This document shows positions 6,614 through 13,157 of a DNA stretch of 64,000 nt, in pieces. Under the pieces are notes generated by a model that saw nothing but the letters and a program-made list of their open reading frames with translations, was not told the DNA's origin and did not search any database. This DNA comes from Caldifarciminota bacterium (GTDB lineage: Bacteria; Hydrothermota; Tepidihabitantia; Tepidihabitantales; Tepidihabitantaceae): positions 1 to 64,000 of the forward strand of contig JAOABP010000005.1 in NCBI GenBank assembly GCA_026418295.1. The letters run 5' to 3'. A program made the translations under genes and the position numbers. Every line of letters begins with the position of its first letter. Within the stretch, counting starts at the first letter, position 1.

Positions 6614-6645
6614 ATAAAAAAACCGGGCTCAGCTTGAGCCCGGTT
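6614..6645 (-). terminator. Rho-independent terminator after the thioredoxin-like gene
   Basis: On the minus strand an 11-base GC-rich stem (AACCGGGCTCA with TGAGCCCGGTT, 3-base loop) is followed by a run of T. It lies about 20 bases after the stop at 6666 and separates that gene from smc. Confidence 0.85.
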
Positions 6646-6665
6646 CAAATCGGGAAGCAGTCTTA

Positions 6666-7445
6666 TCAGCGTAGAACTGCCGTCTTGTACCGGATGATAT
6701 ACCGACCGTCGTTCAGCTCGTAGAAGTAAAGACCATTTGGTACCGGCCGGTGGTGTTCGTCAGTGGTGTGCCAGACCGCGGAATGAACTCCAGCCGGAAG
6801 GTTGCCTTCAACCAGTGTGCCGACAAGTTTCCCGGAAGCTGAGAAGACTTTCAGGGTGACGGTGCGTGTTTCCGGCAGCGAGAAGCTTACGGTCTGGGTT
6901 CTGTTTGCGGGATTGGGGGCTACCTGAGTGAATTCCGGTCGCATTGTTGGCTTTTCCTCCGAGACAGCAGTGAGGTACGGTTCGATCCAGCTGCGAACTA
7001 CCGCCTCATTAAACCCTTCCATTGAGCCGACGACAATCCCCGCAGTATCAATCACATAGTTCAGCGGGATGTAGCCATTCATCCGGTATGCGGTCCAGCC
7101 GGATCCGGCATCACGGAAGAAGGGGTAGCTGTATGCGCGGGCATACACCTTTACAACATTTTCCATATCCTGCCAGAGATTGATTGCCAGCGGTAGATAC
7201 CCCTGACTGCCGTATTCATCATACATTGCTTGTATTCGCGGCAACTCCGCGAGACAGGATGGTCAGGTTGACTGCCAGAAGAAGAGTTGAATCACATGTC
7301 CGCGGTATTCCGCCGGGATGGTGTGCGTCTGCCAGGCGGTGTCCGGGATTGAGATGTTTGGTGCTGGATCACCAGGCTGGGGCCATGCCCAGAGCAAAAC
7401 CGGTGCGGTCAGCACCAATAACAGTATGATTACTTTGAGCTTCAC
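6666..7445 (-). CDS. Secreted thioredoxin-fold (TlpA/redoxin-like) protein, probable selenoprotein with UxxC motif and C-terminal sorting module
   Basis: The reading frame is open for 259 residues except for one in-frame TGA at 7263-7265, exactly where the first Cys of a thioredoxin CxxC motif belongs: FFWQST, TGA, PSCLAELP, compared with the family pattern FWxxWCxxCxxELP. If TGA is read as selenocysteine the motif is U61-P-S-C64. Residues 1-20 are a signal peptide. The thioredoxin fold runs to about 155 and includes the cis-proline segment GYIPLNYVID. The last 85 residues form a FlgD-like beta module ending PNGLYFYELN...YKTAVLR, typical of secreted or cell-surface proteins in FCB-type bacteria. 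A GGAGG site supports GTG at 7445; TTG at 7448 is the alternative. Other readings are a nonsense mutation or a base error. A SECIS-like hairpin follows the TGA. Confidence 0.75.
7236..7252 (-). promoter_or_regulatory. Candidate bacterial SECIS hairpin
   Basis: On the minus strand, ten bases after the TGA, TCGCGG pairs perfectly with CCGCGA around a 5-base loop AGTTG. The loop starts 16 bases after the TGA and has G in its second position. As I recall the bacterial SECIS consensus (short stem, small loop with G among its first two bases, 16-37 bases from UGA), this fits at the lower spacing limit. Confidence 0.55.
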
Positions 7446-7472
7446 CAATATGACCTCCTTTATAGTTACTTT

Positions 7473-7500
7473 ATGATAGCGAATTCTGGTTTTGTGTCAA
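7473..7500 (-). promoter_or_regulatory. Promoter of the thioredoxin-like gene
   Basis: On the minus strand TTGACA (7495-7500), 16 bases and TATCAT (7473-7478) precede a leader of about 25 bases carrying AAAGGAGG. Confidence 0.6.
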
Positions 7501-9953: not shown

Positions 9954-12900
9954 TTACCTTTTCACAATGACAAGCTTCCGGGTGGCAGATGATGATGTTC
10001 CGTTAATGTGCAAGATATAGACTCCGGGGTTCAAAGCGAATGCCGGAAAGGAGAGTGTTCCACTGTTGGTAATTGCCGAATGAGCGGTCATGATCTTTCT
10101 TCCCGCCGGATCATAAATTTCAACAGATGCATTTTTCAATAATCGGGCACCAAGGAGATTGGACAATTCAGATGAACTGAGGCAGGACGGTACGGTGATT
10201 TCAGCATGCGATGGTTGAGAGCGGGAAAGTCTGTCCGGATTAACCTGTGCCACGATGGCAGGATATTGAAGCGGCTGATTTTCTACATAGCGCCATAACT
10301 CCAGAGTTTTATTCCCTTTCAGCGCAAAGAATGTTCCGCCTCCCAAGTGAGTAATATCACCACCGCGGTTGACGCGCTTTTTTTTGCCCGTGGAACCGAA
10401 CTGCGGCAGCGTATCAAGTTCAGACCAGCTGCGGGTAAGAGGATCGAATTTCCAGAATTCGCAGGTGTTTCCACCTTTCAGAGCATAGATGTTGCCGTTA
10501 TAAAAAACAGCACTGCCGCCATCTCTTGATTTTTTGTTTTTTCCAGTCTGTCCGCTGGAAACCGGCATTCCGGGAAGGGGAGTGGGGCTCCATTGGTGGG
10601 TTGAGAGATCAAAGATCCATAACTCGTGATATTTTGCCTTATGGGCGTAGATCGTAGTTTTCTGATCATAAGCCAGCCAGGACCCCTGGTTCCATTTGGG
10701 TTTGATCCCGGCAGGAGCATCGGGCATACGCTGCCAATCTGGAGTAGTAGTATTAAACCGGTAGAATTCCTGGCTCCCACCTTTCAGGAGATAAACATAT
10801 CCGGTATCGTTTTCGGTCACATACACCAGATCAGTACCCCCCTTTACCTTTTTACCATCAGGTCCTTGAGGAATATCCGGCAGCTGGCGCCAGCTGTTAG
10901 TGGCAATTTCGTAACACCAGAACTCAAACGTGCCGTTGCCTTTTGCCATAAAAATTACTTGGTCGCTGCCAGCAGCAGAAGTCCCCTTTTTAGGAAACCG
11001 GCGTGCCGGTCCTTCCGGGATGGACATCAGCATCGTCCAAGAATCACGAATCGGGTCATAGGCATAAAAATCACCGGTTTTGTTTCCTTTGGCAGCATAT
11101 ATCATTCCGTATTCGCCAGCACTGGCAAGCCAGGCTCCATCGCTGACCGGACTGCCGGAGGGTGCGGCAGGCATGGATAGAACTTCCTGCCATCCATTAT
11201 TCCAGAGCGGAGTAACGATAAAATTGGCGGACCGGCAGTTGTTTGAGGATACCTGGTCATACGGGTAATAAGTACTGCAGCGAACAACATATGTGCCGCT
11301 GGAACTCAAGGTGCAGGGTCTAAAGATTACCGATGGTTCTGAATCTCCAGGAGCCATGGTGAGGTCCTGCCGGTCAACGTAAATACGTGCGCCGCCAGAG
11401 GACTCGATTATCAGCCATGCCTGGAAAGTGGCGTTCACATTACCGTAATTTTGCCAGCAGGCGGCGGGTGTAATAACAGCGCCTGGCGTATAGCTTCCGC
11501 TCGGGACCAGGATTTTTGTTGCTCCGACATCCCGGACACGGATAAAAAAGTTTGCTGAACACCGGTTGTTTTCTGGATGCTGGTCCTGTGCCAGCCCGGT
11601 AGAGCAGGTCACTTGCCAGCTTCCCCGTTGCTGAGCGGTAAAACGAGGAAAGACAATTTCGTAATCGGTGTTGGGCTGATGGAACTGCACAGTTTCGCTG
11701 CGGGCGTATTCTGAGCCGATGTGCATAAAAACCGGATAAGTTTCAGTTCGGCTGCCATAGTTAAACAGTTTTACCACCGGATAGACTACCGTACCGGAAT
11801 CAACCGTTCCTGCCGGGACCAGGATCGAGATACAACTTACATCTCTCGAGACCACTTCACAGGAGCCAATATAAGGAAGTAGGTTTTTGCCACTGACCAC
11901 GATCTGCAGTCTGCCGGGAGATTGCGGGTGGATTGGGAATGTTACCTGCCCCATGCTATCTGTTTGTCCGTATCCATAGATTAATGTGTCCATTGATATG
12001 CATACCTGGGCGCCCGGGAAAGGGGTACCGGCAACCTTGACCATGATAGTAAAATTCTGTTCCGTCATTGCTACAACTGTATCATGGATGACATCAGGTT
12101 TCAGCGGTGCGTCAATCCAGACATTGAGCTCCGGGTCGCCCAGGAGATTCCACTCAAGGTAACGAATGCTGTCTCCGTAGATTGAATCGATCCAGTGGCG
12201 GCCTCTCAGAGCAGCGGAGCCGAGACGGTATTCCCCTTCTTCATAAAGGGCGTGGAAGAATCCCCGGTAACAGGCGCTGCGAAAACGCGAAATATGGTTG
12301 CCACTCCGGGTAGTGCCGAAGAAGGCGATTGCTCCTCCCAGCGCTGAAGGCGAGCCGGCACGAACAAACTGATCCCCGTACATTGTTTCCCCGGGAGAAA
12401 GGGTAATAGTGGCGCAGGTAGCGCTGACGACGACCGGCATTCTGATGCCATTCTGCCAGCTTGCCGGTGTGACGGCATTGAAAGGTGAGTACCAACTGCC
12501 AACGCCACTGCCGCGGTAGGTAATGAAAATTCTGCCATCACTGCCTGCATAATTAACCTGCCGGCTGGAATCTCCGTAAAGGTTACAGAGGCTTTCAGCC
12601 AGCAGGAAATTTCTTTCCTGCCAGTAAGATCGCAGAATCTGAGCGTCTTTCTGATAATAGGAATCAGGCGGGACATCTTCGCGGACGACAGTTGTCCCTT
12701 TACGAAACCACAGTGTATCAGTGCCGGCAGGGGGATTTTCATAAGCCAGAACTTTGGCGACGAAGGTGCTGCATTCTCTCGGGTTATGAGCAGGAAATCT
12801 GCCGATCGGAATCTCAATCCGGAAGTCGCCAGTCATATTACCGTAATAGTTGTCATTGTTGTTGGTGAAACTGGGAATGTATTCAGGTGAACCCAGCAGG

Positions 12901-13157
12901 AGAATATACTCGGGAGGAATGTCCCAGTTATTCCAGGCATAGCGGATATAGGAGTGAATCTGACTGGTATCCGCCCCGGTTTCTGAGGTTGTAACTATTT
13001 TTGCCAGCATACCTTTGGCAGTTTTCCAACGGGCGAGCGGTTCGGCAAAGGAAGCAAATGCATCGGGGGTGATGATGAGATACCTCGCACCGGTTGCACC
13101 AGTACTTGCCGCATACAGGATTAAGATAATAAAGAATATGCATTTTTTAGTTTTCAC
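9954..13157 (-). CDS. Secreted C25 (gingipain)-like protein with kelch-like repeats and C-terminal sorting domain
   Basis: A 1067-residue surface or secreted protein. Residues 1-22 are a signal peptide. Residues about 24-350 form a C25 peptidase-like domain: YILLLGSPEYIPS, YYGNMTGDF, IPIGRFPAHNPREC, and the putative nucleophile region VSATCATITLS with C248. The family's catalytic His normally sits in a GHG motif; here the segment at 212-218 reads ITYRGSG, so that His is missing. Two beta-sandwich CARDB-like domains follow, then six kelch-like repeats carrying a KGN/KGG motif (about 690-990), and a C-terminal module ending NPGVYILHINGT...RKLVIVKR like T9SS targeting domains. A GTG start at 13157 has AGGAGG upstream. 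Activity is uncertain. Confidence 0.8.
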   Translation of the reverse strand: MKTKKCIFFIILILYAASTGATGARYLIITPDAFASFAEPLARWKTAKGMLAKIVTTSETGADTSQIHSYIRYAWNNWDIPPEYILLLGSPEYIPSFTNNNDNYYGNMTGDFRIEIPIGRFPAHNPRECSTFVAKVLAYENPPAGTDTLWFRKGTTVVREDVPPDSYYQKDAQILRSYWQERNFLLAESLCNLYGDSSRQVNYAGSDGRIFITYRGSGVGSWYSPFNAVTPASWQNGIRMPVVVSATCATITLSPGETMYGDQFVRAGSPSALGGAIAFFGTTRSGNHISRFRSACYRGFFHALYEEGEYRLGSAALRGRHWIDSIYGDSIRYLEWNLLGDPELNVWIDAPLKPDVIHDTVVAMTEQNFTIMVKVAGTPFPGAQVCISMDTLIYGYGQTDSMGQVTFPIHPQSPGRLQIVVSGKNLLPYIGSCEVVSRDVSCISILVPAGTVDSGTVVYPVVKLFNYGSRTETYPVFMHIGSEYARSETVQFHQPNTDYEIVFPRFTAQQRGSWQVTCSTGLAQDQHPENNRCSANFFIRVRDVGATKILVPSGSYTPGAVITPAACWQNYGNVNATFQAWLIIESSGGARIYVDRQDLTMAPGDSEPSVIFRPCTLSSSGTYVVRCSTYYPYDQVSSNNCRSANFIVTPLWNNGWQEVLSMPAAPSGSPVSDGAWLASAGEYGMIYAAKGNKTGDFYAYDPIRDSWTMLMSIPEGPARRFPKKGTSAAGSDQVIFMAKGNGTFEFWCYEIATNSWRQLPDIPQGPDGKKVKGGTDLVYVTENDTGYVYLLKGGSQEFYRFNTTTPDWQRMPDAPAGIKPKWNQGSWLAYDQKTTIYAHKAKYHELWIFDLSTHQWSPTPLPGMPVSSGQTGKNKKSRDGGSAVFYNGNIYALKGGNTCEFWKFDPLTRSWSELDTLPQFGSTGKKKRVNRGGDITHLGGGTFFALKGNKTLELWRYVENQPLQYPAIVAQVNPDRLSRSQPSHAEITVPSCLSSSELSNLLGARLLKNASVEIYDPAGRKIMTAHSAITNSGTLSFPAFALNPGVYILHINGTSSSATRKLVIVKR

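Follow-up and report, generated by a model that had tools for sequence, protein, structure and literature searches.

Does the in-frame TGA that interrupts a thioredoxin-like gene of a Caldifarciminota bacterium mark a broken gene or a selenocysteine (Sec, U) codon? The gene runs from 7445 to 6666 on the minus strand of the window, i.e., the whole 64,000-nucleotide stretch of contig JAOABP010000005.1 that was analysed, and it has 259 sense codons, a GTG start and a terminal TGA stop. Translation revealed exactly one internal TGA, at codon 61 (7263..7265, minus strand) in the context FFWQST-U-PSC, which bears out an earlier note on this DNA that had described, without naming the strand, an otherwise intact 259-codon gene with a single TGA at the first Cys of a CxxC motif. 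Read as Sec, codon 61 takes that first position according to both the translation and the homologue alignment, and it aligns with the first Cys of the CxxC in ResA and related structures. On comparative evidence, namely a conserved TGA column, a covarying hairpin and the presence of Sec machinery, we conclude that the stop codon at position 61 is almost certainly read as Sec in an exported redox protein.

The predicted product combines a signal peptide, a thioredoxin/ResA-like domain containing U61-P-S-C64 and a FlgD-Ig/type-A sorting tail. The putative signal peptide, VKLKVIILLLVLTAPVLLWAW (7383..7445, minus strand), was recognized by eye as a hydrophobic N-terminal segment. The AhpC-TSA/thioredoxin-like domain (7029..7376, minus strand), with its conserved cis-Pro region IPLNYVID, corresponds to PF00578, which the 259-residue protein matches at 49.2 bits against a Pfam gathering score of 26 (E = 6e-13); it also matches the redoxin profile PF08534 (36.3 bits, gathering score 26.6). 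When the genome itself was searched with PF00578, the locus was matched with one TGA inside. The C-terminal module (6687..6923, minus strand) is recognized by PF13860 and by TIGR04183, a profile of type IX secretion system (T9SS) type-A tails. The thioredoxin fold and FlgD-like tail of the earlier note are confirmed by the Pfam matches.

Homologues were sought in all 147 genomes of the phylum. About 35 of them, in 22 genomes and at identities from 95% down to about 31%, carry exactly one TGA, and they span at least five families (f1, f8, f16, f32 and f34). The TGA column is identical throughout the translated homologues, which read UPSC, UPGC, USGC, UGSC, UPTC, UPYC and others; in the alignment that the earlier note had proposed, TGA stands at this column in most homologues and Cys less often. 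Two architectures recur: a shorter one of about 260 residues, in which the tail follows straight after the thioredoxin domain, and a longer one of about 480 residues, in which an extra middle region precedes the FlgD-Ig tail. The ratio of nonsynonymous to synonymous substitution rates against a congener (G107) is near 0.04 before the TGA, 0.07 just after it and 0.15 in the tail, and such low values past the TGA indicate that protein-level selection continues downstream of codon 61. A search of genome contigs for related loci returned a single relative, a Cys form from Anaerolineales. One Sec homologue (L041, G104:C89) is also interrupted by a TAG, in frame and upstream of the TGA; the copy may be decaying or the TAG a sequencing error.

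Ten nucleotides after the TGA starts a hairpin (7236..7252, minus strand) with a 6-bp stem, TCGCGG/CCGCGA, and the loop AGTTG, placed and shaped, as the earlier note had it, like a bacterial selenocysteine insertion sequence (SECIS). The published bacterial SECIS model calls for a loop of 3-9 nt with G in the first two positions, a stem of 4-16 bp, a UGA-to-loop distance of 16-37 nt and a minimum free energy of at most -7.5 (PMC13188914). Our hairpin falls within all four constraints (5-nt loop AGUUG, 6 bp, 16 nt, folding energy -11.2 kcal/mol), and the likeness is reinforced by covariation. The six pairs form in register in 26/26 distinct TGA sequences from four families, so that 156/156 positions are paired, versus a mean of 90 and a maximum of 106 under synonymous-codon resampling of the same 26 sequences; two-sided changes occur at 5/6 pairs, a result matched by 0/500 shuffles, and slid registers collapse. 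The fifth family, f34, has a different 7-bp hairpin located further downstream, which covaries as well. Scanning a covariance model of the hairpins over the 147 genomes placed 29/30 matches in the codon-61 gene family, a proportion partly built in, because hairpins of that family had served to train the model. A candidate for a further SECIS (L113, G000:C8:225489) was rejected, being antisense to a HEAT-repeat gene.

The check for selA, selB, selC and selD suggested by the earlier note found all four in the genome, which is 1.80 Mb long and 97% complete; its gene content hints at a WOR-3-like lineage, though this is a guess. SelA (492 bits), SelB (382 bits, with both the SelB-wing_2 and wing_3 winged helices), SelD (334 bits) and tRNA-Sec (74 bits, anticodon UCA) all score above their cut-offs. 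The SelD gene (L023, G000:C8:322172-323077) adjoins selB and carries its own in-frame TGA at the Sec position (SCAGU), together with an AGTTA-loop hairpin at a TGA-to-loop distance of 22 nt. The apical loop AGTTR is thus common to the hairpins of the SelD and codon-61 genes, which fits a single SelB serving the two. A search for a Sec-containing formate dehydrogenase using PF00384 gave one weak match with no internal stop.

The phylum also offers natural controls. A strong tRNA-Sec match was obtained in 19/22 genomes with the TGA gene vs 36/125 without it (P = 5e-7). Cys homologues exist (L040, L045), and two genomes with a Cys form differ in what accompanies it: G119 has neither the hairpin nor a convincing tRNA-Sec, and G120 has kept both. 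Since hairpin and tRNA-Sec persist there beside Cys, G120 apparently represents a recent Sec-to-Cys change. A tree was built from 44 thioredoxin domains, with L032, at 95% identity, standing in for the copy of the window, which had been removed as a duplicate row. In it, a clade of 39 members with support 100/98 contains 35 Sec forms and four replacements. As these four are scattered, Sec appears, from the sequences compared, to be ancestral within the clade. Other residues were seen at the same position in two further loci: a pair of tandem copies (L062, G114:C44), one with Sec and the other with Asp (GAC), and a cluster of several Sec thioredoxin genes (L074, G138:C6:120000-126000), one of which has Ser (TCA) and retains a SECIS-like hairpin.

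The earlier note had left recoding and a random nonsense mutation as the two live explanations; each of its proposed checks that was run gave a positive outcome. A nonsense mutation, or a sequencing error, breaking a Cys-containing thioredoxin gene in the source genome would need a single step from TGC or TGT to TGA, and the Cys homologues show that such a gene form exists; however, the same TGA recurs in about 35 homologues of several families at 31-95% identity, purifying selection persists after it and the hairpin covaries. We rejected this explanation because of the conserved TGA, and its probability is negligible. It could be asked instead whether another tRNA or an altered genetic code makes UGA a Cys or Trp codon, since some bacteria have UGA suppressors or tRNA-Cys(UCA) systems. 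Typing of all 44 tRNAs in the genome showed, however, that only tRNA-Sec has a UCA anticodon and that tRNA-Cys (GCA) and tRNA-Trp (CCA) are normal; moreover, the codon-61 gene itself terminates in TGA, so UGA also functions as a stop in this genome. Reassignment was rejected on these grounds and is very improbable, only marginally less so than a nonsense mutation. Two observations do count against recoding. First, the hairpin of the window barely beats chance on its own (z = -1.6; synonymous resampling gives P = 0.011 for its register and P = 0.025 when any register is allowed); across the homologues, the signal is overwhelming. Second, three genomes with the TGA gene, all fragmented drafts (G112, G118 and G066), lack a strong tRNA-Sec match. 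G066 presents an unexplained mismatch: its homologue (L052, G066:C106) has the TGA and a full hairpin, and its tRNA-Sec match is weak (48 bits). Taking everything together, we consider it highly probable that the best explanation of the whole is a genuine selenoprotein, ResA/TlpA-like and probably type IX-exported, with UGA-61 recoded.

For this selenoprotein, selenophosphate from SelD would be used by SelA to form Sec-tRNA, and a bacterial-type SelB would carry it to the ribosome, its winged-helix domain binding the hairpin that closely follows codon 61, so that Sec would be inserted at UGA-61 rather than translation stopping. UxxC proteins of the thioredoxin fold are thiol-disulfide (selenenylsulfide) oxidoreductases. 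From fold and motif it follows that the product is a predicted redox-active oxidoreductase of the ResA/TlpA-like thiol-disulfide type, whose UxxC site would form a selenenylsulfide and whose substrates would be extracytoplasmic.

Where the protein acts is less certain. It would be exported by the general secretory pathway and then probably be carried over the outer membrane by type IX-like machinery recognizing its C-terminal module. Type IX export is likely on the evidence of the tail, which passes TIGR04183 in NCBIfam (28.9 bits, cut-off 23), and of a SprA translocon homologue in the genome (478 bits vs a cut-off of 200; a single 1888-aa frame at G000:C9:275860-281244); the "secreted, possibly surface-sorted" protein of the earlier note gains support from the same two features, although its location remains inferential. 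On the other hand, the selenoprotein could be periplasmic and its FlgD-Ig domain structural rather than a type IX signal. FlgD-Ig tails occur also outside type IX export, PF13860 is the best-scoring Pfam profile on this tail (32.1 bits, cut-off 27) and PF18962 misses its cut-off (21.7 vs 27). In addition, ResA/TlpA relatives are periplasmic or act immediately outside the membrane, and two thioredoxin-only Sec relatives have no tail (L065, 181 aa; L070, 178 aa), so surface attachment is not a constant feature of the redox domain. Since the TIGR04183 cut-off is passed, SprA is encoded and similar tails are common among other proteins in genomes of the phylum, we regard a periplasmic selenoprotein as a serious but less probable alternative to type IX export. 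Another probable surface protein is encoded elsewhere in the window (9954-13157, minus strand). This 1067-aa peptidase of the C25 (gingipain-like) type has Kelch repeats, carries a type IX sorting tail and scored below the cut-off when tested as PorU (52.8 vs 420).

On the minus strand, the gene is flanked by its own promoter-like site, TTGACA-16-TATCAT (7473..7500, consensus match only), a ribosome-binding site, AGGAGG, 8 nt upstream of the GTG (7454..7459), and an intrinsic terminator 3′ of the gene with a 12-bp stem and a T tail (6620..6646). Its upstream neighbours, which encode an M23 peptidase and ParB, keep their place next to the selenoprotein gene in the closest relatives. Structure prediction gave a pLDDT of 46.8, and the model was not used.

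Tentatively, we propose that these genes form a family of surface-attached, type IX-exported selenoproteins spanning the phylum, with Sec as its ancestral and prevailing residue. In small genomes such as the present one, the whole Sec apparatus is perhaps kept mainly for this family, given that SelD is the sole other selenoprotein found in a selenoproteome not exhaustively listed. Annotation software would cut each of these genes in two or drop it altogether, and a conserved exported redox family is thereby being missed across an uncultured phylum. The selenoproteome gains an architecture fused to a sorting module, and selenium chemistry is placed, probably, at the cell surface. The family also provides a natural series for the gain and loss of Sec: Sec with SECIS, Cys with a relic SECIS, Cys lacking both SECIS and a convincing tRNA-Sec, and Ser and Asp forms.

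As to novelty, the "new selenoprotein" of the earlier note stands in part. UxxC selenoproteins of this fold are already known: PF00578 Prx-like thiol:disulfide oxidoreductases, with the same Pfam domain and motif as ours, are predicted with high confidence (PMC13188914 Table 1), and the same 2026 review of prokaryotic selenoproteins catalogues UxxC families under PF00578, PF08534 and cd02966 (PMC13188914). The PF08534 redoxin and cd02966 (thiol-disulfide isomerase-like, TlpA-like) members share fold and motif with the codon-61 protein; they come from other, mostly metagenomic sequences and are likened to it by family, not sequence by sequence. Sorting tail and export go unmentioned in that review, whose text has no words beginning "secret", "sorting" or "periplasm". 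The literature searched yielded no selenoprotein with a T9SS type-A tail and nothing relevant on selenoproteins and type IX secretion together; within it, the sorting-module fusion and the Sec-dominant, phylum-wide distribution appear undescribed. The TUGYCR thioredoxin fold (seleno)protein, NF053656, is another thioredoxin-fold selenoprotein, with a motif starting TU, and our protein falls outside it (16 bits vs a cut-off of 100). By sequence, the best solved relatives are ResA, StoA and DsbE, whose CxxC aligns with the UxxC and which share the conserved cis-Pro but have Cys, are membrane-anchored or periplasmic and lack an Ig/sorting tail. With T9SS type-A proteins (TIGR04183) the codon-61 protein shares its tail module, in a genome that encodes SprA. 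Finally, the PF00578 UxxC family of an ocean survey comprised 225 Sec and 2,740 Cys sequences (PMC2398784); Cys is far commoner there, whereas Sec dominates in the codon-61 family.
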